Below are positions 2,599 to 51,059 of a DNA stretch of 64,000 bases, one piece after another. The notes beneath the pieces are model-generated. The model worked only from the letters and a program-made list of their open reading frames with translations, was not told the origin of the DNA and made no database searches. This DNA is from Chaetoderma sp. LZ-2023a (lineage: Eukaryota; Mollusca; Caudofoveata; Chaetodermatida; Chaetodermatidae): NCBI GenBank assembly GCA_034401795.1, contig CM067371.1, positions 83,269,306 to 83,333,305 of the forward strand, written 5' to 3'. The translations under genes and the position numbers were made by a program. Position 1 is the first letter of the stretch, and every line of letters begins with the position of its first letter.

Positions 2599-2639
2599 GT
2601 CACCATGCTTGCGATATGTATAATTACTTAGTTTAGATT

Positions 2640-25841: not shown

Positions 25842-25952
25842 GAGCATGCATCTGCGTGTAATGGTGTGAGTTGTTCTTTGGTTTTTATTTATTTAAGTTT
25901 AAAGAAGTCCGTGTTTGATAATCACTGTGTGATTGGTTAAGATGCACCATTA

Positions 25953-32400: not shown

Positions 32401-32439
32401 TAATGTCTCAACCATCCGATTTGTATATAAACATTACAA

Positions 32440-32830
32440 AAATGTACAACTGGGTACATTTATACATATACACATCCAACCGCATACATGACATTAACAA
32501 TTCAGGCAACTACCCCCACAACCGGGTACATAATATACAGCCAACCGGGTACATGCGAAACACATATACACGACCAACCGGGTACAGAAGGATGATACAT
32601 GTAACAATAAAAAATACCACAACAACTGGGTATAAGAACACATATACGGGTAAAACCGGGTACACATACACAGCCAACCAGGTACAACTGGGTACACATA
32701 CACAACCAATGGAGGGATCCAAATGGGTACAGCCGGGTACATTTGGTGTAGCCCAAAGGTATAAAAGGCGCGCGCAAACGGCTCATCAGCATCCAGACTC
32801 AACTGACTATTCAGTTCGCATCAGGACAAC
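32440..32830 (+). promoter_or_regulatory. PLE-type promoter array 1: CCGGGTACA motifs plus TATA box
   Basis: Eight exact GGGTACA motifs, mostly within AACCGGGTACA, plus at least three one-mismatch copies lie between about 32447 and 32742. A single inverted TGTAGCCC sits at 32747, then TATAAAA at 32760-32766 and a GCGCAAAC segment. ATCCAGACTCAA begins 31 nt after the first T of the TATA box, where transcription would start. Arrays 2 and 3, with the same layout, are tied to Penelope-like insertions, so this is probably a PLE control region left alone. An open frame of 143 codons crosses it, with repeated GY/TGY units, and is most likely a by-product. Confidence 0.7.
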
Positions 32831-32884
32831 TTAGCAAAGCATCAAGTTTTCGGAAAAGGTTTTTGTCAAAAAAATGTCCCGTTA

Positions 32885-32985
32885 GTTTTGAAAATTTATG
32901 ACTGGAATGACTGGCTTGGTTGTGGGCAAAGGGACATTTCTCAAGACCACTGCATAAGCCGTTTTTGGCTAATATAAAAGGTTAG
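32885..32985. repeat. MITE 'B' fragment
   Basis: TTTGAAAATTTATGACTGG and CATTTCTCAAGACCACTGCA match the arms of MITE B described at 35133. Confidence 0.5.
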
Positions 32986-33525
32986 TGTTATAAAGTAAAT
33001 AGTTGTCATGGTTGCTGACCATTGTTGAACTAAACTTGGTGTGTGTACGTCATCTCACCCTAGCCATCCTGCTTATAATGTTATACAATGCCATGTAAAT
33101 ACATGTAGCAAATACAACACAGGACACGGTTAAATACACTGGTGTAATTGGGGGAGAATCAAAGCAAATGTCAGTCCGCTTGTAAAGCCGATACCCGATA
33201 GATATTTATATAGTATATCAGTATTACTCTAAGTAACCATTGGATCAATGTATTACACCAGTCTTTCTTTTGAACTATTTACAAGAAAGATTTTAGTTCT
33301 TGACTATAACTCATAAATCAACCTGATAAAACCCGTGTGCCTATTTTAATGTCCTTTCATAATAGAGTGATCCATTTCCACCTGTAGCTATATCTCCACC
33401 CATTTCTAACTACACTTCGCCCACTTTGTACGTACGTTTGAATTGACAATTTAAACACCGAAGCCTTAATTCCCATCTCAATTTCACGATATCTTTTAAT
33501 TAACATCCATGATCCTGTTGATTAT

Positions 33526-34742
33526 TAGCTCACCTGGCCAGAATTGTCCATCGTCAGTCCGGCGTCCGTCCGTCGGTCCATCCATCCATCCGTCAGTCCG
33601 TTCGTCAACTTTTTCCTTTAAACGACTTCTTCTCAAGAACCACTAGGCCGATATAAGTTATCTTTGGCAGGAAGTATCCTTAGGGCATATGGATCCAAGT
33701 TTGTTCAAACGAAGCCGATCGGCCAATTTGGCCGGTGGCCAATTTGGATTTCGGCCGATTTTAGGAAATGTCTTTAAAAATCTTCTCCGAAACCGCTTGG
33801 TGGATTGAAGCAAATCCCATGAAATATGATCTAGGGCAAGAGCTGAACCAAGTTTGTTCAAGGGAACTTGATTGGCCAAATGGTTCAGTGGCCATTTTGG
33901 TTGACCTAGTTTTAGCGAAAACAACTCCAGAACCGCTGAAGGGGATCAGGCTGAGATTTGGCAGATATGATTATGGACTAAAGGCCATTAAAGTTTGTTC
34001 AAGGGAAGTTAATCCGTCAAAAAACATGGTGCAGTCGGCCAATCAAAATGCAGCATGTTTGGCGGCCATATTGGATTTTTTTATTTGATGGATTTTGAGG
34101 CTGAAGTTGGTTTTATATAAGTTTTTGGGTATTCTGATCACAAATTTGCAATTTTCAAAGCTGTCAGATAAACAGCTTGGCGGCCATTTTCGCTCATTTT
34201 CCCGCCAAAAACCCCCATACTAAGGCAATGGGAAATTTAAAATGTCTACGTCTCGAGAACTACTGGACCGATTTCAATTATATATGGCAGGACGCATCCT
34301 TAGGGTGTATAGGAGATTCAAATTTGTTCAAACGAAGCCGATTGGCCATCTTGAATTTTGGCCGATTTTTAGAAACGTCTTTAAAAACCTCCGAAACCGC
34401 TTGGTGGATTGAAGCAAATCCCATGAAATATGATCTACGGCAAGAGCTGAACTAAGTTTGTTCAAGGGAACTTGCTAGGCCAAATGGTTCAGCGTCCATT
34501 TTGGTTGACCTAGTTTTAGCAAAAATTACTTTTCTAGAACAACTGAAGAAATCAGGTCGAAATTTGGTAGATATGATTGGGGACTAAGGGCCATTAAACT
34601 TTGTTCAAGGGAAGTTGATCTGTCAAAAAACATGGTGCAGTCGGCCAATCAACAAACAGCATGTTTGGCGGCCATATTGGATTTTTTTTGGATTTCAACC
34701 ATGCCATTTCTGAATCTATCAGATAAACAGCTTGGCGGCATG
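33526..34742 (+). mobile_element. Long repeat 'D', copy 2 (3' truncated)
   Basis: Starts TTAGCTCACCTGGCC and contains two successive 600-bp superunits (CAGGAAGTATCCTTAGGG near 33670, CAGGACGCATCCTTAGGG near 34287). It lacks the GGTGAGCGATACAGG end. Confidence 0.75.
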
Positions 34743-34861
34743 TAGTAAAATTGGCATTTAGTACAGGTGGTCTTTATAGCATGTTTAACTGCATTCTAAA
34801 ACCCTTGTAATCATTTGACAGAGTGACCAAACTCACTTAGCAGCAGTTGTTCACTAGTTCA

Positions 34862-34935
34862 AAATAATAATTTGGCTGAAAGTTATTGCTGCCTTAGAAT
34901 GCAACAACTTTCTGTCAAATAAATATCAAAATATT
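34862..34935. repeat. Palindromic element 'A'
   Basis: AATTTGGCTGAAAGTTATTG and TGCAACAACTTTCTGTCAAAT arms. Confidence 0.55.
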
Positions 34936-35132
34936 CAAAGTTATAGATGTCAGCACACACAATACATATCTTAGATATTTAGCCAGCATAGGAAAACATT
35001 TAATCTTGTAATTTAAAACCACAACTTTAATTCCCAAGATTGAAATGAAATTAATACCCTGTGAGGTAGTGAGCTGATGAAGTGTACCATATTCACATAC
35101 TGATTCTAAAAGATTTATTTAATTAATTCATC

Positions 35133-35328
35133 ATTAACCCTTTAGTACTCATATCAGCAAAAAAGTGCTTCTGTAGTGATCTTGGGAAATGCTCATTTGC
35201 CGATAACTGAGCCAGTCATTCCAGTGATAAATTTTCAAAAATAGTCTTCTCTTGGTCTGCAAGTGGACATTTTCTTTGAGAAAATTGAAATTGTCTTGAA
35301 TCAATTTGAGGGTTAAAGGGTTAAAGCC
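35133..35328. mobile_element. MITE 'B', near-complete copy
   Basis: Bounded by TTAACCCTTTAGTACTC and GAGGGTTAAAGGGTTAAA. Inside are GAGCCAGTCATTCCAGTG, AAATTTTCAAAAATAGTCTTC and TTGGTCTGCAAGTGGACATT. In fuller copies the two arms mirror each other. The TTAA-rich ends hint at a TTAA- or TA-targeting family. Confidence 0.6.
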
Positions 35329-35680
35329 GATTAATTCTAGCAATAAATTTAGTTCAGTATTGCGTTATTCACAAGTTTTGTTGGATAGCATGTAGCATGG
35401 TGACGACCATTTTGAAAATAGTTTTGTTGATGATATCTGTTACTGTCAAGTGCAGCAACAGTTTTCAGCCTGACTATTCAACCCTTGTCACACCAATGTC
35501 TAAAGATTAATTGTTACAAAGCCATTATTAGAAAGGCTGCTGTACAGTTTGTAAACACCATTGCTGAAGACCATTGCTGTCATAGACAGTGCTGTTGCTG
35601 TTATATAATTGACAGCAACAGCTTACACAACCCTTATTTCCAGTTAAATGCGGTAATAAGATTCGCTTCTTATCAATTTA

Positions 35681-37382
35681 TTAGCTCACCTGGCCAGAAT
35701 GGCCAAGTGAGCTTATGCCATGGCGACCGTCCGTCGTCTGTCTGGCGTCTGTCCGTCCGTCCGTCAACTTTATTCTTTAAACGACTTCTCAAGAACCACT
35801 GGGCCGATTTCAATTATATTTGGCAGGAAGTATCCTTAGGGCATAGGGATCCAAGTTTGTTCAAACAAAGCCGTTCGGCCAATTTGGCCGGTGGCCATCT
35901 TGGATTTTGGCCGATTTTAGGAAATGACTTAAAAAATCTCCAAAACCGCTTGGTGGATCGATTCAAAACACACGAAATATCATATAGGGCAAGAGCTGAA
36001 CCAAGTTTGTTCGAAGGAACTTGATTGGCCAAATGGTTCGGCAGCCATCTTGGATGACATAGTTTTCGTGAAAACGACTTATTCTGCAGAACCGCTGAAC
36101 GGATCGGGCTGAAATTTTGGGGATATGATTATGGACTAAGGGCCATTAAAGTTTGTTCATGGGAAGTTGATCAGTAAAAAACATGGCCACCGTGGACCAA
36201 TCAAATTTTAGCGTGTTTGGCTGCCATATTCTATTTTTTTTATTTGATGGATTTTGAAGCCCAAATTGGTTTTCTTAACTCCGCTTACTTGTCAGTCAGC
36301 TGTCGTATAGCGATGAACCCATCCGTCTTCTGTATGTCCGTCCATCCATCTGTCTGTCTGTCTCACCAACAATGGTGGCTCATTTTGTTATTTCTTGACG
36401 GATTGACACCAAACTTGGTCACAATGTTAATGTCGCCATCTAATATCTGTGTTGTGAAAATGAAACTGATAGGACGTCAAATGCCAGAGTTACCACTCCT
36501 TAAATATTTGCAGTCTCACTTTCATAGGGCAAATATAGGTTTGTTTCCACAGTCCATTGATTTATCACTATGTCAGATTTTATTGCCAAACTAGATATTA
36601 AATTCCAATTAATGGATTCACCTTTCCAGTACTGCCTAAATATTTAAGATACTGTATGTATTATGTGCTCTGACATCTATGCTCTTAAAAATATTTTGAA
36701 ATGTATTTGATTGAAAGTTGTTGCTGCGTTAGGCAGCAGGGAAAGTTTTTGCTGCCTAAGGCAGCAATGATTTCAGTCAAATTATTTTTTTAATCGACTC
36801 CAGCTCACCCTACCTCTGCTGCTAACTTGGTGATTCAGCCAGATGTGCATGTGTTAAATGGATTGTGTGGTGGTGGGGAATAACCTGCTATAAAGACCAC
36901 CTACCTGACTTTAGAGACCATTTTCTTCAATTGTATTTAAACCTCTAATAACCATCTGACTGAGTTTTTGCAGACGACATATTCCAAAGGTTATATCTCT
37001 GAACCTGATAAATATATTGAAAACAATTGGACTGAAATTGTTGGTGGCTAAGCCGCCAACAACTTTCAGTCGAATTGTTTTCAAAATATTCAACAAGTGA
37101 AGAGCTTTTGAAAATTGGAATTATTGGCTGCACTGGCTTGCAGCGGTGAGACAGTTAAGAAACCAGCTGTAGTTAGCACTGATATCATCTATTTTCACTT
37201 AAATATTGTTCAAAATAACTAATGCAAAAAAACAGTCCAGCGATTGTTGTCAGTATTTCGAAAACTAAACCATTTGACTGAAAGTCATTGGAAGTGACAA
37301 CGATGGATGTAAAACCTAAGTAAGATTAGTTGAAATGCCAATGTTCCAGGTGAGCGATACAGGCCCATTGGGCCTCTTGTTT
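35681..37382 (+). mobile_element. Long repeat 'D', copy 3 (full length)
   Basis: Carries both the opening hairpin AGCTCACCTGGCC...GTGAGC and the closing CCAGGTGAGCGATACAGG. It is close to copy 1 along its whole length, including the palindromes at 36695 and 37012, so those palindromes were already part of this subfamily. Confidence 0.8.
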
Positions 37383-37661
37383 TGAAACCGATTTGGCTGT
37401 GAGCTGTTGTTGCTAATGGCATCGTGTATATACCCATGGCCTAGTAAAAATACTATTGTGGTTCTGATTTCCCTATCTACCCTAACTTATGCCTGCTGCT
37501 GTAAAAATTTTAGTAAAAAATTCAAAAATAAACATGAGACATACATGTACCTTCTGATCCTAATTTTATCAAAGACCAAAGTAGAAATCTTTTCCAATGT
37601 CCAAATTTGACAGCAAGCTATGTCTTTATCTGTATAACTAATGCAAACTGCAACTGTTGCA

Positions 37662-38020
37662 GCTAAGAGACTACCTGCTTTTAGCGACCACCTTTTTGAC
37701 GGACCACATGGTGTCCATTATAGACACGGTTGATAATAAAAGGCTTAACCCTTTAACCTTCGAATTTGTTTAAAAAATTAGAATTTTCACATTTCCTAAG
37801 AATAAAACATGCAAATACTAGCCTATCCTATTTTATCAGCCTAAAAAAACACAAATAAATGTCCCTACCCTAATTTCAGATGGTGATGTAATCGGAACCA
37901 TACCATCATGTTTAACCATTTAACACTCATCGGCCAAAAATGGCTTCGGCACTGGTCTTGAAAAATGTCCATTTGCAGACCAAGAGAAGACTATTTTTGA
38001 AAATTTCCAATTGGAATGAC
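37662..38020 (+). repeat. Direct repeat of about 350 bp, copy 1 (pairs with 40332)
   Basis: CTAAGAGACTACCTGC through TTTTTGAAAATTTCC is nearly identical to 40332-40680. A third, partial copy (AAAACATGCAAATACTAGCC to TTTAACACTCATATC) lies at 38270-38408. A Penelope-like insertion sits between the outer copies. Confidence 0.8.
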
Positions 38021-38515
38021 TGACTCGGTTATCGAGCCAGTCATTCCACTGGTAAATTCTCAAAAATTGCCTTAAAAAATACAAATAAATGTCCCTACCC
38101 AAATTTCAGTACCAATTATTAGACTCGTAAGATAATATTTATCTACCAAATTTCAATGTTTTTTCATAAATCACATATTTCCCCCAGAAATACACAAAAT
38201 GATATTTTCTATGGAGAATATCAACTATCAAGAAAAATTATGTGTCAATAAATTTCATAAGACTAAAACATGCAAATACTAGCCTATCCTATTTTATCAA
38301 CCTCAAAAAACACAAATAAATGTCCCTACATGTACCTACCTACAATAACTTCAGATGGTAATGTGATCGGAACCATATCATCAGGTTTAACCATTTAACA
38401 CTCATATCAGGATTCAGACTTCTGGATTCACAATCGTATCCAAGCGTCAGGCTTAAAAACCCATATTGGTTTACTAATCACTGACTACGTCGTTATCATC
38501 TTTTAAGTTTACACG

Positions 38516-39172
38516 ATGAGCTTACCTAGCAACCAGTTGCCAAGGGAAAAGGAGATAGTCATCCTGCCGTCTATCTCAGGACTGAGTCTTAACTCAGTCG
38601 ACGCGGACGCATTATTGGCACCGTCGACCACCGATGCATCCATACGCCGTATCCTACCTAAACCGGTGGCACTAATGCCCATGGGGGAGGCCAGCTCCTC
38701 CACCGTCGACCCTCCAAGGATGGAAAAAGAGAGGGCTTTAAAGAGAAGAAGGGTAGAAGCAGATTCCGCCCCCGCATCAGTAGCAACGGAAACCGATCCA
38801 GGAAGCAGTGCCAAATACCAAAAACCGGCAATCACTGAACAGCATCAGGGAGCCTACAGGCTGTGGAGAAACGCAGCCTGCAAGCTTACAAAACTTGAAT
38901 TTCAGACTGAGAAATTAGAACAGGCTCTGTCTGACGGCACCACGCCGGGCATGCTCCGTACGAGGGTCACCTGGACCCCCGATACGGAGGATCCCGAGTA
39001 CAAGAAAGAGTGGACAGAACGCATAAAAGCGTTTGAAGCTTCACTGACAAAATCAGTACTTGACCACACCAAGACCAAATTATCTGGCCAGTATGAAGTA
39101 GTCAAAGGACTCAAATTATCCTTCGAAAGATGCAACAGTAACACTGCCACCAGGGAAGCAGACTGGCCATAG
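38516..39172 (+). CDS. PLE ORF1-like protein, function unknown
   Basis: The 218-residue frame has a clear ATG about 100 bases after the predicted transcription start. The N-terminal 120 residues are Ser/Pro-rich and low in structure, with a basic patch (ERALKRRRVEA near residue 77) that may be a nuclear signal. The rest (about 105-210) is helical and charged (LTKLEFQTEKLEQAL, EWTERIKAFEASLTKSVL) and could form a coiled coil. I recognise no domain. After the stop at 39172, another frame continues with an Arg/Pro/Gln-rich stretch (RPTTIRRQQQRQNERPYRPP near 39240), so a frameshift may have separated a basic nucleic-acid-binding tail. Its place upstream of an RT start suggests an accessory or Gag-like role in the PLE. 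Confidence 0.55.
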   Translation: MSLPSNQLPREKEIVILPSISGLSLNSVDADALLAPSTTDASIRRILPKPVALMPMGEASSSTVDPPRMEKERALKRRRVEADSAPASVATETDPGSSAKYQKPAITEQHQGAYRLWRNAACKLTKLEFQTEKLEQALSDGTTPGMLRTRVTWTPDTEDPEYKKEWTERIKAFEASLTKSVLDHTKTKLSGQYEVVKGLKLSFERCNSNTATREADWP

Positions 39173-39569
39173 CCACAACCACCGTAAGGCATAGCCGGCT
39201 GCATAGGTCACAAAGCCCAAGAAGACGACCCCGCCCGACCACCATCCGCCGCCAGCAACAGAGGCAGAACGAGAGGCCCTACCGCCCACCGGCTGGACGT
39301 CCATCACAGGCACCAAAGGGGCAGTACACCAGACCAGACTGGGTCGAATGCAGAAGAAGTAACAATAGACCGGCGCAGAGTAGACGGCCCCCTTAATGGG
39401 CACTAATAGTACACAAGCCATCGAGCAACTGTTGATAGCAGTCCAGAGGCTAGCAGAATCAAGGAGATGACTACTGGATAACCGTCACACCATTTGTGAT
39501 TTTTATTTCAAAAACTCTAATTGTAATAGTCATCCTCTGTTTAACAATACCAATATTCACCATACTATT

Positions 39570-39961
39570 ATGCATTGCTCATTACCAAACCGTAACAATA
39601 ACGCTGTGAACAAAGAAGATGAAACTTACATCTCTTCGTTTGTCTTTAACCACTCATCAAACCCCCTCAACCAGGGTACCGTCAGCCTACTGGATAAGGG
39701 TTTGGGCTTCAGCCCAACGGTTTCAGAACAACAATTAGGCAACCTGTACACCGACCTACAGGTTTTCTTCAGACGCAGTGAGTGACCTTTTTCCTGAAAA
39801 TAATGTTATAATAATAACTACCTACTAAAGATCGACATGATCGATGTACAATGACAATAGGGCTGATTTTGTCTATATCGATATTCAATTTCAGTCTTCC
39901 AGATTTTGTCAAGAAATCACCTGTCCCAAATCACAATGCCGGTGTTAACTCCCTCCTTCAC
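39570..39961 (+). pseudogene. PLE reverse transcriptase, N-terminal fragment with a probable intron
   Basis: The first 70 codons (39570-39777) include FVFNHSSNPLNQGTVSLLDKGLGFSPT, which matches the conserved N-terminal motif of Penelope-like RTs (N-x-S, then L-L-x-K-G-L-x-F-x-P). A consensus donor GTGAGT lies at 39778 and an acceptor TCTTCCAG ends at 39902. Splicing would join RR to NFVKKSPVPNHNAGVNSLL, which fits the next stretch of PLE N-terminal regions. The family is known to keep introns. The fragment ends at the insertion border, before any catalytic motif. Confidence 0.6.
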
Positions 39962-39962
39962 T

Positions 39963-40145
39963 TTAACCCTTTAACCCTCATATCTGCCAAAAATGGTTTC
40001 TTCAGTCATGTCAGTGGTCTTGAGAAATGTCCATTTGCAGACCAAGAGTAAATTTTCAAAAATAGTCTTCTCTTGGTCTGCAAATGGACATTTTCTATCA
40101 GAAAATAAAAAATTTCTTGAACAAATTCGAGGGATAAAGGGTTAA
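39963..40145. mobile_element. MITE 'B' copy
   Basis: TTAACCCTTTAACCCTCATATC on the left, GAGGGATAAAGGGTTAA on the right, with AAATAGTCTTCTCTTGGTC inside. Its left end overlaps the flank of the PLE insertion, which therefore landed in a MITE B copy. Confidence 0.65.
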
Positions 40146-40331
40146 GGGGCCCAATCATACTGACAAAAATGTATGTCTGTAATTGACACCACCCACCCAC
40201 CCGACTTCCGCTTTAGGCATGAAATCATTGTAGTTCTTTAAGATGCATGATCGTACACGTAAGACTACCCATCTTAAGAAAGATCCATCAATTGGCCCCC
40301 CAAATGCTAATTGTCAGAGCCAGTAAGTTGC

Positions 40332-40690
40332 GCTAAGAGACTACCTGCTTTTAGCGACCACCTTTTTGATGGACCACATGGTGTCCATTATAGACACTGT
40401 TGATAATAAAAGGCTTAACCCTTTAACCTTCGAATTTGTTTAAAAAATTAGAATTTTCACATTTCCTAAGAATAAAACATGCAAATACTAGCCTATCCTA
40501 TTTTATCAGCCTAAAAAAATACAAATAAATGTCCCTTCCCTAATTTCAGATGGTGATGTAATCGGAACCATACCATCATGTTTAACTCATATCGGCCAAT
40601 AATGGCTTCAGCACTGGTCTTGAAAAATGTCCTTTTGCAGACCAAGAGAAGACTATTTTTGAAAATTTCCCATTGGAATGACTGACTCAT
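40332..40690 (+). repeat. Direct repeat of about 350 bp, copy 2 (pairs with 37662)
   Basis: Nearly identical to 37662-38020 apart from a short deletion in the ACCATTTAAC segment. Confidence 0.8.
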
Positions 40691-40945
40691 TTCCAAAGAC
40701 CGCTGCAGGTGCCATTTTTGGCTGATATGAGAGAAAATCGCCTGCAGTGGTCTTGAGACATCAGTCATGACCATTTACAAGCCAAGAAAAGACTATTTTT
40801 GAAATTTTATCTCTAGAACGACTGGCTTGATAACTGAGCCAGTCGATTCTGTGGTAAAATGTCAAAAATATAGTCTTCTCTTGGCCTGTAAATGGACATT
40901 CACTCAGCAAAATTTTCTTGAGCAATCTTGATCATAAAACTGTTA
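40570..40945. mobile_element. MITE 'B' copies, two in tandem or one complex copy
   Basis: GGTCTTGAAAAATGTCC at 40616 and GGTCTTGAGACATCAG at 40750 are each followed by an AGAAAAGACTATTTTTGAAA arm. The second is mirrored by AATATAGTCTTCTCTTGGCC around 40870. Confidence 0.55.
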
Positions 40946-40973
40946 AATAAAGGAATATTTGTATGGTGAATAT

Positions 40974-41046
40974 TTTGAAACTAATTTCTCGGTGTCCGAG
41001 CCATGGCAGCAAACAGGGGCCAGTAAAATTAGTTTTGAAGTATTCC
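40974..41046. repeat. Palindromic element 'A' variant
   Basis: GAATATTTTGAAACTAATTT and AAAATTAGTTTTGAAGTATTC arms around CCATGGCAGC. Confidence 0.55.
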
Positions 41047-41627
41047 ACAGCATTCCTGTATAGATGTTTTGAAATTAAGACACCGCAATTTCAAGGAAGA
41101 AGGGTTCAACTATTATATCCAGATGAGCGTCAAAGTTCTTAGGCCTCTTAGTAGACTTTAACCTTTTCACTGTCAAATCCCAGAAAAAATATTTTCTTTA
41201 TGATTTAGAATTTATTCTATTGAATATTTTGAAATTAATTTGGCTGGAAGCCATTGCTGCCTTTAGTAGGGAAGGAGGAAATTTTTTTTCAATTTTTTAT
41301 TTATTTTAAAAAGGTCATAAGTATTTGTTTTTCAGATATTTAACTGTCCATTAAATATGTTTGTAATTACCAAATTTGTCAATTTTTTTATGTCACAATT
41401 AGCAAAAGGGATTCACATGGCATACAAATGGCCTTAAAACATTGTAATTTGTATAGTTTGACAAATGTACAGATGTTTTAACATTTATGCTATGTATAAA
41501 AAAAAATCTTTACTCCCGGCCTGGTGAAAAAAAATGAAAATTTCACCAGGGAGGTTTGCAGGAAAGGAAACGATTTTTTATTTTGGCCTAATATATACAT
41601 GTAAATTGTATGTCTTATATTTGACAG

Positions 41628-41704
41628 TTGACAGCACTCGTGTTACCTTGACACTGGATCCAAGTGTACCTGGTTCTGACTATATTAATGCAAACTTTGT
41701 AAAG
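41628..41704 (+). CDS. Protein tyrosine phosphatase, internal exon (D-x-x-R-V ... DYINAN)
   Basis: The 77-bp exon lies between an acceptor (TTATATTTGACAG, ending 41627) and a donor (GTAATT at 41705). It encodes DSTRVTLTLDPSVPGSDYIN followed by ANFVK, the conserved PTP motif D-x-[ST]-R-V and then S-D-Y-I-N-A. The first two bases complete a Phe codon begun at 604, and the exon ends in phase 0 at Lys. The next block in the family would be an A-T-Q-G-P region. I found no such exon between here and 64000, so the following intron probably exceeds 22 kb. The protein acts on phosphotyrosine; receptor or cytosolic type is unknown. Confidence 0.9.
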
Positions 41705-41767
41705 GTAATTTACAACCATTTCTCATAATTACACTCGCCTGGTAAGGGGAAGAAGGTATTGCAAATG

Positions 41768-41815
41768 GCTGGATCTGTCTGTCTGTGTGTGTGCCTGTCT
41801 GCCTGCCTGCCTGAT
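41768..41815. repeat. CTGT/GCCT simple repeat
   Basis: CTGTCTGTCTGTGTGTGTGC then CTGTCTGCCTGCCTGCCTG. Confidence 0.8.
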
Positions 41816-42019
41816 TTTGACATTTCTGAAAAGGCTGCCTAAGACTAAATTGAAATTATATGGTGTGTCACCCTTTTTTTTTAAATATTAAAAATTATTT
41901 ATAGCTCCATTGGACAATGTCCGGTCCCTTGATTGGCATGCTACAGTATTTGTTGGCACAGTGTGCATGTAGGATATATTCCTTGAATATTTAAATAATG
42001 ATCATGTATATGTGACTTA

Positions 42020-42450
42020 TCACTTTAACCCTAAAATTTATTCAAGAAAATTTTTTCAGAAATGTCCATGTGCAGGCCAAGAGAATATTTTTGAAAAATT
42101 CCAGCGATAAATTTTCAAAAATAGTCTCCTCTTGGTCTGCAAATGGGCATTTCTCAAGACCACTATAGAATCCATTTTGTCTGGATCGAGAGTTAAATGG
42201 TTAATGAGGCTAATTAGCAGGCTCATCTACATGACCATTACTCATGGCACTATCCATCATTCTGTCAAGGTCTTAGTGATAGCTTTAATTCTCAAGCAGG
42301 CCAAAACAAGCCTTTTGCTGTGGTTTTGAGGAATGTCCATTTGTGGACCAAGAAAAAACATATTTTTGAAATATTACCACCAGTCATTCCAGTGGTAAGT
42401 TTTCGAAAATATTCTTTTCTTGCTTTGCAAATGGGCGTTCACTATAGAGA
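42020..42450. mobile_element. Two MITE 'B' copies in succession
   Basis: 42020-42203 runs from TTTAACCCTAAAATTTATTC to GAGAGTTAAATGGTTAA with AAATAGTCTCCTCTTGGTCTG inside. 42320-42450 has GTTTTGAGGAATGTCC, an ACATATTTTTGAAATATTACC arm and the mirror ATATTCTTTTCTTGCTTTGC. Confidence 0.55.
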
Positions 42451-42516
42451 AATGAAAGTGCAAACAGGCTATCGTTGTGATATGTAGGCAGTTTTGCCAA
42501 AATTGTATAAAAATTG

Positions 42517-42650
42517 ACAGACAGACAGACAGACTGACTGGCAGACTGACAGATTGGCATACAGACAGACTGACAGACAGATTGGCATACAGACAGACTG
42601 CCAAATAGACTGGCAGACAGACTGCCAGACAGGCAGGTAGGAAGGCTTAT
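42517..42650. repeat. GACA/CTGGCA microsatellite-like tract
   Basis: Irregular GACAGACAGACTG and GACTGGCAGA units over about 130 bp. The - strand frames rich in Ser/Val/Cys here are artefacts of the repeat. Confidence 0.85.
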
Positions 42651-42918
42651 AGTTAGTTGCAAGTCACAATTAACAGATGCAATTTTTATGGCCAATTTCG
42701 ACCCTTTAGCATGTTTAGGGCTAAACAAGAGTAATTGTGCTCATTTTATTTTGTAATTTATAGCCGACATGTCTGAGTAAAATTGAATATAAATATTTTC
42801 ATAAAATCTTTACCACGTACAATTATACATTGATTGAACAAAACGTCTAGTAGGATCTTATGTTCATTTTGAAATAATCTTGCTGTCTATTGCTTGCGCA
42901 TGTAAAATAGTACCATTG

Positions 42919-44520
42919 TTAGCTCACCTGGCCTGAAAGGCCAAGTGAGCTTATGTCGTGGCGACTGTCCGTCGTCTATCCGTCAACTTTTCCTTTAAAC
43001 AACTTCTCAAGAACCGCTGGGCCAATTTCACTTATATTTGGCAGGAAGCATCCTTAGGGCATAGGGATCCAAGTTTGTTCAAATGAAGCCTATCGGCCAA
43101 TTAGGCCGGTGGCCATCTTGGATTTTGGCTGATTTTTAGAAATGTCTTTAAAAATCTTCTCCGAAACCGCTGGAGGGAGTGAAGGAAACCTCGAAATAAG
43201 ATCTAGGGCAAAAGCTCAACCAAATTTGTTCAAGGGAACTTAATTGGTCAAATAGTTTGGTGGCCATCTTCTCCAGTACCGCTGAAGGGATCAGGCCGAA
43301 ATTTGGCAGATATGATTAGGGACTAAAGGCCAGTAAATTTTATTCAAGAGAAGTTGATCCGTCAAATAACGTGGCCGCTGTGGGCCAATCAAAATATAGC
43401 ATGTTTGGCGTCCATATTGGATTTTCTTATTTGATGGATTTTGAGGCCGAAATGGTTTTTGGGTAGGTTTTTGGGTATTCTGATCTCAAATTTGCAGTTT
43501 TCAAAACTGTCGGATAACCAGTTTGGCGGCCATCTTGGATCATTTTCCCGCCAAAAGCTCCCATACTAAAGCAATGGGAAATTTAAAATATCTCGAGAAC
43601 AGCTGGGCTGAGTTCGATTATATTTGGGATGAAGCATCCTTAAGGAATAGCGATTCAAGTTTGTTCAAACGAACGCAATTGGCCAATTTGGCCGGTGACC
43701 ATCTTGGATTTCGGCCAAATTTTAGAAATGTCTAAAAATCTTCTCCAAAACCATTTGAGGGATCGATTCAAAACTCATGAAATATGATCTAGGGTAAGCG
43801 CTGAATCAAATTTGATTGACCAAATGGTTCAACGGCCATCTTGGATGACCTAGTTTTCACAAAAACGACTTCTTCCCCAGATCCACTGAAGCGATAAGGC
43901 CGAAATTTGTGATATATAATTAGCGACTAAGGGCGATTAAAGTTTGTTCATGAGAAGTTAATTTGTCAAAAAACATGGCCGCGGTGAACCAATCAAAATA
44001 TAGTATGTTTGGCAGCCATATTGGATTTTTTTATTTGATGGATTTTGGGGCCGAAATTCGTTTTATATAGGTTTTTGGGTATTCTGATCACAAATTTGCA
44101 ATTTGTCGGATGAACGGTTTGGCAGCCATCTTTGGTCATTTTCCTGCCAAAAGCACCCATACTAAAGAAATGGGAAATTTAAAATGTCTTCTTTTCGAGA
44201 ACTGCTGGGCCGATTTGAATTATATTTGGCAGGAAGCATCCTTATGGCATAAAGATTTCATTTTGTTCAAATGAAGCCGATCAGCCAATTTGGCCGGTGA
44301 CCATCTTGGATTTCGGCAGATTTTTAGAAATGTCTTTAAAAGGGAAAGGGAAGTTGATCCATCAAAAAAACATGGACGCTATGGGCCAATCAAAATGTAG
44401 TGTGTTTGGCGGCCATATTACACTTGCAAAAATGTCCACAAACTCATTTAAAAGACTGCTAAACCACCCACCAACAATTTTGACAAAAATTGATGGTGAT
44501 CCAGGTGAGCGACACAGGTT
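42919..44520 (+). mobile_element. Long repeat 'D', copy 4, showing about 600-bp superunits
   Basis: Opens AGCTCACCTGGCCTGAAAGG and closes CCAGGTGAGCGACACAGG. GGAAGCATCCTT-type blocks at about 43043, 43630 and 44230 show a 600-bp period. Each superunit holds three related blocks that start at AACCGCTG-like sequence. No protein is recognised. Confidence 0.78.
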
Positions 44521-44565
44521 TAAAAGATGTGCACCAGTATTTAGTTGCAACTAGTATCAGTCAGA

Positions 44566-44661
44566 TGGTCGGTCGGTCGGTCGGTCGGTCGGTCGGTCGG
44601 TCGGTCGGTCGGTCGGTCGGTCGGTCGGTCGGTCGGTCTGTCTGTCTGTCTGTCTGTCTGT
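44566..44661. repeat. (GGTC)n then (TCTG)n microsatellite
   Basis: About 18 GGTC units switch to about 5 TCTG units. The V-G-R-S and D-R-P-T frames across it are meaningless. Confidence 0.95.
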
Positions 44662-44814
44662 CAAATCTTTGGTATTTCTGACAGAGCTGCACATCGACGG
44701 ATCTGGTCTGTCACTCAGGTATATGACGTTATAATCCATTGTCACATGTAGGCTGCCTTTACAATCAAACTGATGTACCTATAGTTCTGTCATGAACATT
44801 GAATAGTCAGTATC

Positions 44815-45115
44815 TATAGTTGTTATTACACCACAAAACATCTATACCATTCAATCACTACATGGTAAATCAACTACTCTGCATTTAGCCATCAGAATAG
44901 GATTTTTATGCTTGCTTACAAACCCCCATATGCCTATTCCATTTCTATGTATACCCTCAACCAGGCTACTGGTAGGGTACACCCCCAGCATATGACCTGA
45001 TATAGACTGGCACCAGTCTGTACTCACTCCTTGGTGACACCTGTCACTAAGCATGGTCGCGCATGCGCATAGGAGCCCAAATAGGAAACAGATTCACTTT
45101 TCAAATATTCTTCAA
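44815..45115 (+). repeat. Left terminal repeat of DIRS-B2
   Basis: GTTGTTATTACACCAC, ACCCTCAACCAGGCTAC, ACTGGCACCAGTCTGTA and GCGCATGCGCA match DIRS-B1 positions 19295-19595 at perhaps 80% identity by eye. The following TTTTTATAGCTTTGCGCTGA (45151) matches TTTATAGCTTTGCACTGA at 19628. Confidence 0.8.
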
Positions 45116-45471
45116 GCAGTAAAGTCTGCAAATATTCCAGCTAAGTTTTTATAGCTTTGCGCTGAGTTCAGCGTACGTATTTCAGTGCTTCAATCCATGA
45201 TTATGCTTAATATGAAGCCTATCCTCCCTAATTTATGTTTATCGAGTATGTCATGGTTTTTACTGCATTGTATACTCTGTATATGTGTGTTACCGGTTTT
45301 CATGGTAAACAAAATGCCTAAGTCATCATCGTCATCTCTAACCCTCAATTAAACTCTAAGAGCCTTTATATTCACTTATTTCTAGAATCAAATCTTTTAG
45401 TACATTTCGTTTTATATCCCTAAGAAAGTTTGAAATCTAATGTAAGTTTTACTACCAAAGGTCGATGATGG

Positions 45472-47345
45472 TTACCAATCAGCATGATTGATGCCGATTG
45501 GATCCATACAATGTAGTTGATGGATCCAGAATTTTTCACGGTCCTTGCAGAAAGCTGTGGCTTCCGTGCTCTCGGGATCATGACGTAACACTTCAATGAC
45601 GCTGTAGTTGACATTTGTGGGTCCGTGGCTGGGGAGATTAAAATGTTGTGCTACAGGTGTGTCTTTGTTGTTTTTAATGTCCCTCATATGTTCTTTGATG
45701 CGAACCTGGAATTCCCGTTTAGTTTCACCTACATATTGTTTAAGGCATTTTTTGCAGGTAAGGAGGTAAATAACATTCATAGTGTTGCAGAATGTTTTTG
45801 TTTTGATAAAGTATTTTAGCCCAGTGTGTGAGCTTTTGAAACTTTTTGTGCCGTTCATGTTTTTGCAAAATAAGCGGTTATCTTTGGTGCATGGATGTAT
45901 GGGATTCGCTATGCTTTTCCCGTGTTATCCACATTTCCTTGGGTCTGTGAATTTAGCAGTGACCAATGTGTCGTTGAAGGATGGATTGCGTCTATGGCCG
46001 AAGATAGGTGTCTCTGTAAATGTTGCCCGACATTTTGGACTGGACTGTAGTGTTGGCCAATGGCGTTTAGTTATTTTTGGGGCTAGTTTGCTGTGTTGGT
46101 GGAAATCAGTGATACATGGTATCCGAGTGTTGATTTCCTTGGTTGGTTTTGGCAGGAGTAGGTCTGTGCGATTTTGTTGCATTGCTCTGTGCAAGCTAGT
46201 AATGAGGGTATCTGTTGGGTATCCTCTAATTGTATAGTGGTGTACCATTTCATGTGCGTTTTTGAGAAAATCCGTTTCTCTACTGCAGATCCTCCGTAGC
46301 CTCAAGAATTGTCCATATGGGCTCGCTTGTTTGGAAAAATTTGGGTGAGCCGATGAGAAGTGTAGATACCCGTGTGTATCTGTTGGTTTGGTGTAGAGGT
46401 CAAAGCCTAAGTGTCTGTTTTGGAGGATAAACACATTTGTATCCAAAAAATTGATGGATTCTGTGGATTGTTCTGCTGTGAATTTAATCGTGGGGTGTGC
46501 GTTGTTCATATGTGTTATGAATTTTGCCAGTGAGTCGGAACCTTGGGTCCAGATTATGAAAATATCATCAATATAGCGATAGTATAGGGCTGGCTGAATT
46601 TCAGCTGTCCTGAGTAGTTTTTCTTCGAGTTGGGCCATAAAAATGATGGCATAGCTGGGTGCTAGTTTTGTGCCCATAGCTGTACCGCCAATGGAGATAA
46701 TGTTCGTCATTAAACTCGAAGTTGCTGCATGTGAGCACTATTTTGAGCAGTGTTAACAATCTGCGTGGTGTTAGCGTGCTTGGACAGCCATGTATTCTTA
46801 AATGTTGGGATACAGCTCTAAGTCTCTCATTGTGAGGGATGTTGGTGTATAGTGATGTAACATCCATAGTAACTAGAATGGCATGTGGAGGGATGGCGCC
46901 AAAAGTTTCTAGTTTATTTATGAAATCAGTGGTGTCCTGGATATATGATTTAATTTTGTGAAGATGAATTTTGATATGTTCATCGACAAAGCTACTGATG
47001 AGTTCAGTAGGGCTTCCATTGCCACTGATAATTGGTCTCCCTGGGGTGAGTGGGCCATTCATTTTTTGTATGCACTTTAGGAAGTAGATAGAACCTGGCT
47101 GTTCGTGGGTTGTCGGTTCTGAGACTGTTAGCTATGTCTCTTGTGATTTCACCACTGAGAATCATGTCCGTGATGGCGGTTTCTACCTTCTCTGCGTGGT
47201 GCGTGGTGAGATCTGTGGCTTGTTTAATATAGTAGTGGGTGTCACTAAGTTGTCGGAGTGCTTCCTTTTTATATGTTTCCGTATCTTGGATGACGGTATT
47301 CCAGCATTCACTTGCCAATTCTACTCCAATTATACTTCTCCTATA
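45472..47345 (-). pseudogene. PLE reverse transcriptase with GIY-YIG endonuclease, 5' truncated
   Basis: Reads from 47345 down. An early block, ALRQLSDTHYY and RFYLLPKVHT, belongs to the PLE N-terminal/finger region. Then comes the RT core with VTMDVTSLYTNIPHNE (motif A), GTAMGTKLAPSYA (motif B) and YRYIDDIFIIW (motif C), followed by a linker and the endonuclease: VIYLLTCKKCLKQYVGETK carries the GIY/YIG-type pair, RIKEH the next block, and the chain ends WIHQLHCMDPIGINHADW. Two frameshifts (near 47045 and 46700) and one in-frame TAA (45925, between RT and endonuclease) disable it. The conserved N-terminal K-G-L-x-F region is absent. The few disruptions point to a fairly recent insertion. Confidence 0.88.
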
Positions 47346-47394
47346 CATAAACGGCCACCCGCCAGTGGCTCCTTGATCAGAAAACCATAATTCC

Positions 47395-47800
47395 AAATAT
47401 TTTCTGGTCACAGCTGCACAAATGCGGCTGCTACCGGCTACAAAACAAATCTGGCTACACCCTTCAAAATTCAAACCAATCCGGCTACAGTAGCTACCTC
47501 TACTGGCTACACAACAAAACAAATCTGGCTACACCTTTCAAGTTTCAACCCAATCCGGCTACAGTAGCTACCTCTACCGGCTACACACCAAGCCAATCCG
47601 GCTACAGGATGACCTAATCCCGGCTACATAACTTGATTAACCGGTTACACAAGCCATAAATCCGGTTACAAAATGTCTAATCCGGCTACAAAATCAAATC
47701 TGGTCACACGCCCCTCGTGTAGCCGCATCTGGAGAGTATAAAAGGAAGACGCAAACTGTGTATTGGTATCCAGACTCAAACTTGCACACAAGTTCGCGTA
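47395..47800 (+). promoter_or_regulatory. PLE-type promoter array 2: CCGGCTACA motifs plus TATA box
   Basis: Ten exact GGCTACA motifs, most as TCCGGCTACA, with two GGTTACA and one GGTCACA copies, lie between 47420 and 47710. About 78 bp of the array is duplicated (CAAATCTGGCTACACC to GTAGCTACCTCTAC). One inverted TGTAGCC at 47718 precedes TATAAAA at 47737. ATCCAGACTCAA begins at 47768, exactly 31 nt from the start of the TATA box as in array 1. It belongs to the insertion bounded by AAAGTTTGAAATCT repeats. Confidence 0.8.
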
Positions 47801-48025
47801 AGGGCAAACAAGCACAATCAAGCTTCTTAAAAAAGTTTGAAATCTGGTTCTTTTTCATTAAGGATATTTGAATTTCAATTTTCCTGCTTTCTCTGAGCAG
47901 ATGCTTGTCTTTCCTTTTATCAGAATCATTAATTTAGAGAAGTTCTCTTAAGTTTTCGAAGCTGTATGCTTCATTCTCTATTTTTAATTCGTTTTTAGGA
48001 GTCTCAAATCACTCGAGAAGGTGAA

Positions 48026-49048
48026 ATGCACGTGTGCAAAGGATGGTCGTCGACTGTCTCTAAAGAATATTTTACGGATTTTGTGGCCAAGGCCGCGTTG
48101 CCCATTGATCGCTTCCCCTCTATTGTTACCAAATCTAAAGTTGTGTCTTTTGCAAGCACTTCTTTATCTTCTACGCCAGCAACGGAGGGTGGGGGGGGGG
48201 GCACTTCTAATTCTGATGGCGTTTTAGCTCTTTTTGCGCGATTTTTGACAAAGTTGTTAGATGAGCGAATTTCATCTGCCATTCGCATGGTTAGAGATGT
48301 TTCATCCAAGTCGGACAATAACCAGAAGGTTAGCGGACGTGTCCGCAAATGGGGGAAGCCTACTTCCCTCACGTCCAAGCAAGAGATTTGGTCCCCGAAA
48401 CCGAAGGCTAAAGACTCAAAGAAGAGGCTCTCGAAGGTGAACTCGAGCAGGTCACCGGGTAAAACCCACATAAGTCTTGAGGAGGGGCATTATGCTCAAG
48501 CAGTGGTGTCGGCGACTGAAGTCCCTGATTCAAACGCCTATGCCAACGTCACGTTTTCTGTTATACCGGTAGTCAGTAATGTTATAAGATTGCCTGTTTC
48601 TAGCTTAATGCGGTCAGGAAGTTCGGTAGCTTCCGGTTTATCAACCACTTCCAGTTTGTGCTTAGTAGATTCGGGTCTCCAAGACCCGGGGCTACTTCTG
48701 GTTTCCGTTTTCTCCTTCCTTTTCCGTTTCCGCTTTTTCTTCCGGTTTGCGTGTTTCCGGTTCCTATGCTTCTTCTGGGTTTTTTACTGTACATCTGGGT
48801 CTGTAGGATCCTGTTCAGTTTCCGGTCGTCTACTTCCGGTTTGCGTATTTCCGGTTCCTATTTTTTTCCACTTCCGGTTTCATACATCCGGGAATAGGGC
48901 ATTTACGGTTTTCATGGATCTTTCTGGTGTTCATGGATTAACTTCCGGTCCGATCTTCCTGTTTTGGATTTCCGGTGATAGAGAACTTCCTGGGGTTCCA
49001 GGTTTGTTCTTCAGGTCCAGTTTACATGTTCGCTTTCCTAGGATCTAG
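48026..49048 (+). CDS. Gag-like ORF of DIRS-B2 (C-terminal part is low-complexity)
   Basis: The frame starts at an ATG at 48026 and is open for 340 codons. Residues 1-190 look like a real protein: a Ser/Lys-rich region with a poly-Gly run near residue 53 (a G-tract, possibly hypermutable) and a basic region (PKPKAKDSKKRLSKVNSS near residue 132). The piece KTHISLEEGHYAQAVVSATE aligns with the relic at 19985 in DIRS-B1, which shows it belongs to the element. From about residue 200 on, the frame runs through the TTCCGG array and encodes only Phe/Leu/Arg-rich sequence, so the true C-terminus is probably earlier or has been replaced. No zinc knuckle is seen. I infer a Gag role from position; no domain proves it. 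Confidence 0.5.
   Translation: MHVCKGWSSTVSKEYFTDFVAKAALPIDRFPSIVTKSKVVSFASTSLSSTPATEGGGGGTSNSDGVLALFARFLTKLLDERISSAIRMVRDVSSKSDNNQKVSGRVRKWGKPTSLTSKQEIWSPKPKAKDSKKRLSKVNSSRSPGKTHISLEEGHYAQAVVSATEVPDSNAYANVTFSVIPVVSNVIRLPVSSLMRSGSSVASGLSTTSSLCLVDSGLQDPGLLLVSVFSFLFRFRFFFRFACFRFLCFFWVFYCTSGSVGSCSVSGRLLPVCVFPVPIFFHFRFHTSGNRAFTVFMDLSGVHGLTSGPIFLFWISGDRELPGVPGLFFRSSLHVRFPRI
48620..49030. repeat. TTCCGG motif array of DIRS-B2
   Basis: At least ten CTTCCGGTTT or TTTCCGGT motifs plus many TTTCCG half sites lie between the Gag-like gene and the conserved AATTAAAGACTCTTC block. It corresponds to 20310-20880 in DIRS-B1. Confidence 0.65.
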
Positions 49049-49340
49049 TCATCATCTTGCCTAAGAGTGTCTTTTTTCCGTAATTGTTTAAAAAAAATTT
49101 AAATGTTTAATGGGAAAATAGTCATACCGAGACATTGCCAGTCTTCAAGTCTCTCTTGAAATTATATAGATATTCAGCATTTATTCTTTTGTCAGTGGCA
49201 ATATTTCAACGTAATTAAAGACTCTTCCGACTGGTTGCTGTGTGGTTTTTTTGTTGCAGCTTATTTCATATGCGCATATCATCGCTTAATTTCGAATGGG
49301 CTCACTCAGCCGATAAGTCGGTCTATTCTCCGTTGCAAAA

Positions 49341-49514
49341 CATTTTAATTTACCCAACCATACTGGACAAAACGTGTCCTATAAAATTATACATGTTCTC
49401 CCTCACGATCCTGAGGACATCGATAAAACTTATATCAGGAAAGAACAAGAGAAGTACTGGATACACCAACTACACACGTTGGACCCCATAGGGATTAATC
49501 ATGCAGATTGGTGA
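49341..49514 (+). pseudogene. GIY-YIG endonuclease C-terminus of a PLE
   Basis: Reads HFNLPNHTGQNVSYKIIHVL, then RKEQEKYWIHQLHTLDPIGI and NHADW with a stop. It aligns residue for residue with the end of the - strand PLE at 45472. The catalytic half is missing. Confidence 0.85.
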
Positions 49515-49693
49515 TTCCAAAAATCTGAGTTGTTCCTTAAAACTAATTAGAATCACCAAACTCCATGCCATGGAAACCCTTCTATGACGTCGTAATAGAT
49601 GTCTACCTCTAAACGTCACACTGACCATTACGTTTGCTCCTTTCCACGTTATAAACATAGAATCAGTTAGCCAACAGTCTCATACTCACCTGT

Positions 49694-50386
49694 ATGGACA
49701 AATTTCAGTGTAAAAAGTGCAATGCACAATTTGCTCAACGCACCGGGCTAAGGAGGCACATAAGAGTCATACACGAACTGAGTGGCTTCTGGAGCTGCAG
49801 TTATTGCAGGATCAGCTTTACACGTTTAGAGGAAGCCAGAGGCCACTGTGAAAAAATTCATCTATTTTCAAAACACCAGATCAAAGAACTTGTTCGACAG
49901 GCCAGCTACACTAGAGTGATCAAAATCAGAGATTACTCGAGTTTCAGGATACCTGTCCCTCCACCAAGACCGACTACTCCAGCAACCAACGCCAGTGTCA
50001 CAGAATCTCTCTCTGGAGATAGACAGGTAACACAGGAAGTGAGCACACCCACCGCCGAACAACTAAACGAGGTAGACACGCCAGCCACAACACCCACAGA
50101 ATCAACTGGGATCGAACATACCACCGACATTTCATCTGAGCCATCCTTTCACACACAGACAGAAGATAGTGGACCTCTTCCACAAATCACAGAGGAGGAG
50201 GCTGATCATATCCACACGCAGTACGTAATCCATATTCCTGAGGGTAGTATACCATACACCAGTAACACAACAGACGATGAACTCTTCTCATTTCTCTTTG
50301 TCGAAACTGGTTTAACCGACACAGTGACATATCTTACTCCTGGACTAGAACCACGTCTAGTCACAGACCGGGGAACTGACCCGTAG
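49694..50386 (+). CDS. Two-finger C2H2 zinc-finger protein, probably carried by a PLE
   Basis: This 230-residue ORF starts 180 bp after the GIY-YIG stop and lies within the target-duplication-bounded insert. Finger 1 is C6-x2-C9-x12-H22-x4-H27 (FQCKKCNAQF...LRRHIRVIH). Finger 2 is C35-x2-C38-x12-H51-x4-H56 (WSCSYCRISF...HCEKIH). A short basic stretch follows (RQASYTRVIKIRDYSS). From about residue 77 on, the chain is Pro/Thr/Ser- and Glu/Asp-rich, like an activation or interaction region. It is intact, unlike the neighbouring PLE coding parts. It probably binds DNA. Because it sits 250 bp before the GGTTACA array, that array is the obvious candidate target, but this is inference. It could instead be a captured host gene fragment. 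Confidence 0.65.
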   Translation: MDKFQCKKCNAQFAQRTGLRRHIRVIHELSGFWSCSYCRISFTRLEEARGHCEKIHLFSKHQIKELVRQASYTRVIKIRDYSSFRIPVPPPRPTTPATNASVTESLSGDRQVTQEVSTPTAEQLNEVDTPATTPTESTGIEHTTDISSEPSFHTQTEDSGPLPQITEEEADHIHTQYVIHIPEGSIPYTSNTTDDELFSFLFVETGLTDTVTYLTPGLEPRLVTDRGTDP

Positions 50387-50644
50387 AGAGGTAAGCTTAA
50401 ACGCACTCAACACTTACTCTTTTAACCCTTCATACAGGATAAACTAATCTGACTTCTATTTTTCCCTGATGAGTATAACCACACAAAGTACGAAATGCCA
50501 TAAATCTGAATCATTCCACTTAAGGTTATCCAACAAAATGCAAACCCGTGTCATCAAATGCTATTTATACCCCATAAATTCCCGCCACACTGGGATATCA
50601 AAGAAACACAATATACTCAGTCAAAGAGTCACTCTTGGCTACTG

Positions 50645-51048
50645 GGTAAAATGCTTATATAAAACTTTATTTTTCCGGTTACATCACTAGTTTTTTACGG
50701 TTACACGTAACCTAGAAAACAACTATTACAATTTTCCGGTTACACAACAAATGACTTTAACGGTTACACAATCTAGAAGTCAAAAATTTCCGGTTACCAA
50801 CAAACAGACAATTGGTAAATTCCGGTTACAAGATGTTAAATCCGATTACAAAATCAACATTTCCGGTTACAAGCATGAAATTCCGGTTACATGTACCCAG
50901 ATTTTTACTCGTCCCGGTTACACCAAGGAGCAACTGTAACCGGCCCGAGAGTATAAAAGCAGGCGCAAAACACTGCACTGACATTCGGATTTCGATCCAA
51001 CTGATCAGCATTAGAAAATCTTTAGAAGTTTTCATGACCAGTCAAAAC
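50645..51048 (+). promoter_or_regulatory. PLE-type promoter array 3: CCGGTTACA motifs plus TATA box
   Basis: Eight exact GGTTACA motifs (mostly TTCCGGTTACA) plus GGTTACC and GATTACA variants lie between 50670 and 50925. An inverted TGTAACC at 50935 precedes TATAAAA at 50952. GGCGCAAAAC follows, and ATTCGGAT starts 31 nt from the start of the TATA box, aligning with ATCCAGAC in arrays 1 and 2. The 60 bases after it are leader sequence up to the insertion border. Confidence 0.8.
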
Positions 51049-51059
51049 CTATTCTCTGT

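Follow-up and report, generated by a model that had tools for sequence, protein, structure and literature searches.

Introduction

How do promoters that share one architecture within a single genome come to carry different bases at the same position of an otherwise common repeated motif? The question is raised by a stretch of 64,000 nucleotides (hereafter the window) from the caudofoveate mollusc Chaetoderma sp. LZ-2023a (GenBank assembly GCA_034401795.1, contig CM067371.1, positions 83,269,306 to 83,333,305, forward strand), in which three arrays of a motif with the core GGNTACA precede a TATA box, N being mostly G, C or T according to the array. An initial annotation, made from the letters alone, linked these arrays to Penelope-like elements (PLEs) and attributed their internal uniformity to the concerted turnover of binding sites with a changing DNA-binding partner. 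The analysis reported here, which covers the window and a scan of the 2.44 Gb genome, places the arrays in the pseudo-long terminal repeats (pLTRs) of dispersed PLE families, and finds that a third open reading frame (ORF3) of several families encodes a two-finger C2H2 protein whose first finger varies with N.

Results

Three arrays in the window

The arrays and their promoter-proximal features are the following:

32452..32741, forward strand: array A (N=G), eight GGGTACA
32747..32753, reverse strand: inverted promoter-proximal copy of array A, GGCTACA (forward-strand letters GGGCTACA)
32760..32766, forward strand: TATA box of array A, with the start-like sequence CATCC from 32790
47436-47690, forward strand: array B (N=C by majority), ten GGCTACA and two GGTTACA (47643, 47664)
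47718: inverted copy of array B, GGCTACA, with the TATA box at 47737
50677..50922, forward strand: array C (N=T), eight GGTTACA
50935..50941, reverse strand: inverted promoter-proximal copy of array C, GGTTACA
50952..50958, forward strand: TATA box of array C, with the start-like sequence CATTC from 50982

These arrays were confirmed and lie well beyond chance expectation, the densest cluster in the window holding 12 GGNTACA per 400 bp against a maximum of four in 200 dinucleotide shuffles of the window. Much of the layout given in the initial annotation was recovered exactly: GGGTACA occurs eight times at 32452-32735, GGCTACA ten times at 47436-47684 and GGTTACA eight times at 50677-50916, TATAAAA stands at 32760, 47737 and 50952, and the start-like sequence (CATC, TATC and CATT in arrays A, B and C) begins at the 31st base counting from the first T of the TATA box. 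Other parts of that description were too strict. The single fixed base attributed to each array holds for the forward copies of arrays A and C, but not for array B; the inverted copy is present in all three, 13, 19 and 17 nt upstream of the TATA box, but in array A it carries C and not G; the CCGG head of the motif is not constant, since CCGG, CTGG, TCGG and ACGG all occur; and the segment after the TATA box, described as GCGCAAA, reads ACGCAAA in array B.

Arrays as part of PLE promoters

The arrays are part of the pLTR promoter of dispersed PLE families and not mere neighbours of such elements, a stronger link than the one first proposed. Six longer genome stretches (L039-L044) were examined. 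In L039, a family C copy read in the sense direction, a hammerhead (2038), array and TATA box (2523) are followed by ORF1 (2586-3422), a reverse transcriptase (RT) with GIY-YIG extending to 5860, ORF3 (5937-6719) and a second hammerhead (6802), array and TATA box (7287), the two pLTRs lying 4.76 kb apart with 100% identity over 719 bp (blastn). The same order (TATA box, RT, GIY-YIG, ORF3, hammerhead, second TATA box) is seen in L040 and L041, of family B, with pLTR pairs about 96% identical over 187 bp and 249 bp, respectively (blastn); the first pLTR of each is without a hammerhead match, and reading frames are interrupted in the RT of L040 and in ORF3 of L041. In Pfam, ORF2 of L039 matches RVT_1 above the cut-off (3.8e-09) and, in the same ORF, GIY-YIG below it (0.0038), and the family B piece of the window matches GIY-YIG above the cut-off (8.3e-07; 45472-45924) and RVT_1 below it (4.2e-05). 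A long terminal repeat (LTR) element was considered and rejected because GIY-YIG and the hammerhead are present.

A full element was absent from the three other stretches: L042 has LINE-like ORFs between its arrays, L043 joins DIRS-like sequence and L044 was unmatched by the queries. In the L042 region (C5:7222000-7231900), the tandem N=G pLTRs lie about 4.0 kb apart with the LINE-like ORFs on the opposite strand, and a third TATA match lies 4.45 kb further on. At C3:66751547-66763044, a region of which L039 forms part, two family C pLTR pairs occur on opposite strands, each pair 4.76 kb apart.

Genome-wide, the pattern of inverted motif, TATA box and CGCAAA occurs at 218 places, against one for a reversed-pattern control. 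Thirty of these 218 were excised with 1.5 kb on each side; at least three motif copies are present in the 450 bp before the TATA box in 28 of the 30 loci, a hammerhead core upstream of the array in 19 and an ORF3 match in 17, and many of the remaining loci join other sequence.

Uniformity of N across the genome

Arrays with at least three motif copies before the TATA box and the expected tail gave 59 rows, arrays with fewer copies, other tails (e.g., T2, T3) or an identical last 200 bp having been dropped. Of these, 58 were used, as the second-TATA row of L036 recounts four copies of its neighbour. The majority base is G in 20 arrays, C in 21 and T in 17, and it is carried by 395 of the 408 motif copies (130 of 136, 151 of 156 and 114 of 116, respectively). 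Tabulated per cluster, N is fully uniform in 47 of the 58 arrays; the 58 arrays are not independent cases, because copies of one family are kin. Among the N=G arrays, the 12 of family A (L001, L004, L006, two in L007, L008, two in L042, L047, L048, L051 and L053) lack an inverted copy within the final 40 bp. The array L102, which belongs to L101, is mixed, with three G, one A and one T.

A three-copy CGGNTACA pattern gave 4,884 matches in the genome against 5,485 for its reversed control, and was used merely as a list of places because satellites swamp its counts. Satellites of 46 bp containing TGTANCCG, found at C1:5195218-5196145 and C1:42154804-42156047, are among those that do so. For N=A, the pattern gave 4,898 matches against 5,873 for the control and revealed no N=A class, a negative that falls short of proving that none exists; the matches listed lie on C1 without exception and are almost all satellite or simple repeat when judged by eye, the one at C1:19740929 being an irregular triplet.

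ORF3 and the finger-1 helix

ORF3 lies between GIY-YIG and the array, and its copy in the window is:

49694..50386, forward strand: ORF3 of the family C copy, two C2H2 fingers (first C at 49709 and 49796) and an acidic tail, open for 230 aa

This copy alone reaches the Pfam zf-C2H2 cut-off (8.7e-06; 26.4 bits against 25.2), those of families A, B and T3 falling below it. The pattern C-X2-C-X12-H-X3-5-H is nonetheless present in families A, B, C and T3, and the fingers of C2 and G3 were legible as well. Scored in a single copy per family, the tails of A, B and C hold 16, 19 and 15 acidic residues (D+E) and 0, 0 and 2 basic ones (K+R), respectively. Identity is 44% between the ORF3 of families A and B and 28-30% between those of A and C, and single-sequence AlphaFold2 modelling of ORF3 gave a mean pLDDT of 36.3. 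The pattern of codon changes indicates that ORF3 is under purifying selection: within the finger block (56 codons), the ratio of replacement to synonymous rates (dN/dS) is 0.05-0.25 in seven of nine within-family pairs, and the pair A51-A47 has no replacement changes. Between families, synonymous sites of the block are mostly saturated.

For each locus, the finger-1 helix was read at positions -1, 1, 2, 3, 4, 5 and 6 and paired with the array of its own element:

N=G, family A: WRTSLVR (L047, L051), with H at position 6 in L053
N=G, G3: FRTSLVK (L095), FRTSLVR (L097), FRTGLVR (L101)
N=G, G4: FRTGVIR (L107)
N=C, family B: HRTSRRR
N=C, C2: HRTSCRR (L082), HRTSRHR (L088), HRTSRRR (L091)
N=T: QRTGLRR (family C), QREGVSR (T3, L056)

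The residue at position -1 tracks N in all 11 representative loci, which span seven subfamilies, W or F going with G, H with C and Q with T. Minority bases are few in the arrays of these loci, and copies with finger 1 broken or unread (e.g., L010, L024, L057, L103, L105) were left out. Position 3 was also considered as the one that sets N and was rejected: S is shared by family A, L095 and L097 (N=G) and the N=C loci, and L101 and L107 (N=G) have G, like the N=T loci. By the usual finger code, finger 2 would read xCG and finger 1, through R at position 6, would start at the next G, so that N would fall in the finger-1 site. Finger 2 has R at -1 and mostly D or E at 3 (N, asparagine, in L097), and finger 1 has R at 6, which under this code fits the constant CG-G of the motif.

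Spacing of the motif copies

Motif spacings cluster at about 10, 20-22, 30-33, 41-42, 51-54 and 62-63 bp, multiples of about 10.5 bp being favoured. Pooled over 13 arrays, 104 spacings give R=0.58 at 10.2-10.6 bp, a value reached by none of 2000 jittered sets; for 27 spacings of families A, B and C taken together, R=0.55, reached by none of 5000 random sets. Among six arrays evaluated singly, those of B, T3 and C2b are significantly phased. The 12-bp spacers to the right of the motif are about as similar to each other as shuffled ones in arrays A (0.27 against 0.26) and C (0.27 against 0.27), and slightly more alike in array B (0.32 against 0.29), where a 74-bp unit is duplicated. A base-frequency table gives 0.1-0.7 bits after the motif and 1.1-1.4 bits at single positions before it (G and T classes); the high values inside the motif are partly built in, because TACA was held fixed and three of the four letters of CGGN were demanded. 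Because the spacing favours multiples of about 10.5 bp and the right-hand spacers are mostly unrelated, simple tandem duplication fails to explain the uniformity of the arrays, and upkeep as binding sites is favoured over it.

Predicted hammerhead ribozyme

The PLE pLTR carries a predicted hammerhead ribozyme, seen in the window as:

50454..50525, forward strand: hammerhead fold of the family C copy, core CTGATGAG...GAAA from 50466

The hammerhead core is kept in 15 aligned copies from seven subfamilies. In the 12-pair fold, 83.9% of cells are paired against at most 38.9% when the fold is slid along the alignment, with changes on both sides at four pairs; this control leans toward the fold, because the fold was hand-written from the same sequences. 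Three of five measures lie beyond all 500 shuffles, and the other two do not (pairs with both-side changes, four against a mean of 3.8; further pair types, six against 7.8). Rfam returned nothing at the gathering score and, at E<=10, no hammerhead family, the matches being mostly to hairpin-like microRNAs (miRNAs).

PLE copies and other features of the window

The PLE copies that carry the three arrays are distributed as follows:

30814..31155, forward strand: upstream piece of the PLE subfamily G2 copy carrying array A (blastn 83.7% to L075, 85.3% to L073 over 30925-31155)
32214..32862, forward strand: G2 pLTR with hammerhead remnant, array A, TATA box and leader (blastn 80.8% to L073, 80.9% to L075)
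45434..47297, reverse strand: inverted truncated family B copy, head to head with array B (87.6% to L040, blastn), with GIY-YIG at 45472-45924 and RT pieces at 45925-47131
47429..47836, forward strand: family B pLTR fragment with array B
49330..51055, forward strand: family C 3' end, with the GIY-YIG tail to about 49514, ORF3, hammerhead, array C, TATA box and the start of the leader

The G2 copy is split, about 1.06 kb of other sequence (31156-32213) separating its pieces. In its relatives L073 and L075, ORF1-like sequence (by eye) joins the C-terminal half of GIY-YIG, and no RT or ORF3 match was found within the 3.2 kb examined; in L076, RT and GIY-YIG precede a G2 pLTR with ORF3 missing from the interval, and the edge of the stretch holds an ORF3 fragment in inverted orientation. 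The family C copy of the window is 93.2% identical to L039 over a length of 1,728 (blastn).

Just after array B, an ORF of 349 aa (47999-49048) has no Pfam match and lies in TTCCGG-rich DNA that resembles 20148-20650; it is perhaps a piece of a DIRS gag that replaced the PLE body. That the arrays drive this ORF was considered and rejected, the pLTR of L039, L040 and L041 leading into other ORFs and then RT/GIY-YIG. A DIRS-like element on the forward strand (8554-11639) has an RVT_1 match (3.8e-23) followed by an ORF with weak matches to the phage-integrase N-terminal domain, by eye a tyrosine recombinase. Long hairpins at 40017-40102 and 37004-37097, with sub-threshold miRNA matches, are perhaps small inverted-repeat transposons. 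A repeat family of about 500 bp, also present near L040 and L041, has many minus-strand copies:

25950-26522, 33589-34688, 35666-36245, 42916-44341, 59418-60566 and 62369-62701, reverse strand: sites of the ~500-bp repeat family

Discussion

The most economical reading of these observations is, we infer, that of a positive loop, in which ORF3 is, somewhat more probably than not, the activator of its own array, giving each family a self-encoded and specific control of its pLTR promoter. In this self-activation model, the array would serve the pLTR promoter as its upstream activating region in PLEs that encode an RT with a C-terminal GIY-YIG. The ORF3 fingers would bind the motif copies, whole-turn spacing placing several molecules on one face of the DNA, and bound ORF3 would bring in the transcription machinery at the TATA box, which lies about 30 bp ahead of the predicted start site. 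A change in the finger-1 helix of a lineage would be accompanied by a change along its array, to N=G, C or T, and copies that lack ORF3, such as those of the subfamily to which array A belongs, would depend in trans on the activator of an N=G relative. Whether PLEs with their own activator and phased sites have indeed split into N=G, C and T codes by joint change of finger 1 and array, with use in trans, we regard as evenly balanced. The changing DNA-binding partner postulated in the initial annotation thus acquires a candidate in ORF3, the finger-1 helix of which differs among families of the three N classes. The concerted turnover invoked there for the uniformity of the arrays gives way in part to family descent, the window containing members of three dispersed PLE families whose copies share that uniformity, and turnover was not directly observed.

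Several observations weigh against self-activation. The match between residue -1 and N is broken by three decayed copies, the near-identical pair L048 and L049 (G at -1) and L034 (N, asparagine, at -1). Furthermore, with eight rows compared, seven of the 56 finger-block columns, including -1, separate the three N classes, and the match is inseparable from group membership because six further columns split likewise; the N classes coincide with ORF3 groups, so that as few as two changes may underlie the match. The usual finger code gives no clean assignment, facing N with position 3, which fails to track it, and two fingers usually read fewer than the 9 bp of the motif. Eight of the 20 N=G arrays have an inverted TGTAGC copy beside the TATA box, with N=C (window 32747; L060, L064, L066-L070), which may be a relic of N=C ancestry or a site at which another factor binds. 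Phasing is not significant in three of the six arrays evaluated singly (those of families A and C, and array A of the window), the left-hand flanks of the motif exceed shuffled similarity in all three window arrays, and the pair B40-B31 has a dN/dS of 1.52, with one synonymous and six replacement changes.

A less probable but substantial alternative is that a host transcription factor, such as one of a set of related zinc fingers, binds the arrays, ORF3 serving in RNA binding or packaging, for instance, and the match with N reflecting common descent. The joint segregation of N classes, ORF3 groups and six other finger-block columns is what common descent would give, and the length of the motif and the persistence of the array in G2 copies without ORF3 also favour a host factor. 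Such a factor alone, however, leaves unexplained why PLE families of the same genome that encode different fingers have a different core base, and the scored ORF3 tails (families A, B and C) are acidic, unlike those of a basic RNA-binding protein. It is improbable that ORF3 binds the array in order to counter silencing or to steer insertion to its own pLTR, and not in classical activation. The head-to-head and tandem PLE copies would suit such a role, but inverted copies are a common feature of PLEs at large, and activation fits best with an array that abuts the TATA box and start-like sequence and has nearly all its copies in one direction. The precedent for anti-silencing is VANC, which, in the available passages, acts on short motifs, often tandem, that vary among related elements (PMC5735166). 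That the arrays are passive tandem repeats spread in the pLTR, their uniformity reflecting recent duplication, is very improbable: the 74-bp unit of array B (2.3 copies), the short repeats in arrays A and C and the similarity of left-hand flanks speak for it, but right-hand spacers in A and C stand at the shuffled level, information after the motif is low and helical phase is kept in the pooled spacings.

If ORF3 does bind its array, PLE-type retroelements would own a private promoter code, with diverged protein-site pairs coexisting in one genome and providing a natural series for the joint change of a transcription factor and its many sites. Self-activation could also explain how PLE families avoid cross-activation and how copies that lack ORF3 exploit more complete relatives. 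The system would then be an animal counterpart of the plant VANC system.

Comparison with known systems

The elements described here share with other PLEs the order of RT and GIY-YIG, tandem pLTRs, head-to-head truncated copies and a hammerhead ribozyme, and differ from them, as far as the literature examined describes these, in the additional two-finger C2H2 ORF after GIY-YIG and the phased array of a 9-bp motif before the TATA box. Proteins encoded by other elements also bind repeated or short sites near their own promoter, as do TnpA on the subterminal repeats of En/Spm and Tas in foamy viruses. The likeness lies in self-encoded binding near the promoter, putative in the present case, the proteins and elements being unrelated. 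A putative TATA box and initiator have been proposed for the Penelope pLTR of Adineta vaga (PMC3846280), and the pLTR of an Anolis element has been described as probably acting as a promoter and bearing a hammerhead (PMC11167929); the word 'zinc' appears in neither main text. Terminons, the giant PLEs of rotifers, likewise combine a Penelope-like RT with hammerhead motifs, but are attached to telomeres, and 'zinc finger' is absent from the main text (PMC6431247). In a literature search of partial coverage, which does not establish absence from print, neither a C2H2 ORF nor an array of this kind turned up in a PLE.

The closest analogue in mode of action would be VANC with the motif arrays of the VANDAL transposons of Arabidopsis. 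VANDALs are DNA transposons (MULE), whereas the carrier here is an RT/GIY-YIG element. VANC functions in anti-silencing and its binding has been demonstrated, whereas that of ORF3 is proposed, and the available passages do not call VANC a C2H2 protein (PMC5735166). As described there, VANC is encoded by the element and binds short motifs that accumulate in repeats and differ among related elements (PMC5735166), and the PLEs of Chaetoderma likewise pair an element-encoded protein with short repeated motifs that have diverged among related families.

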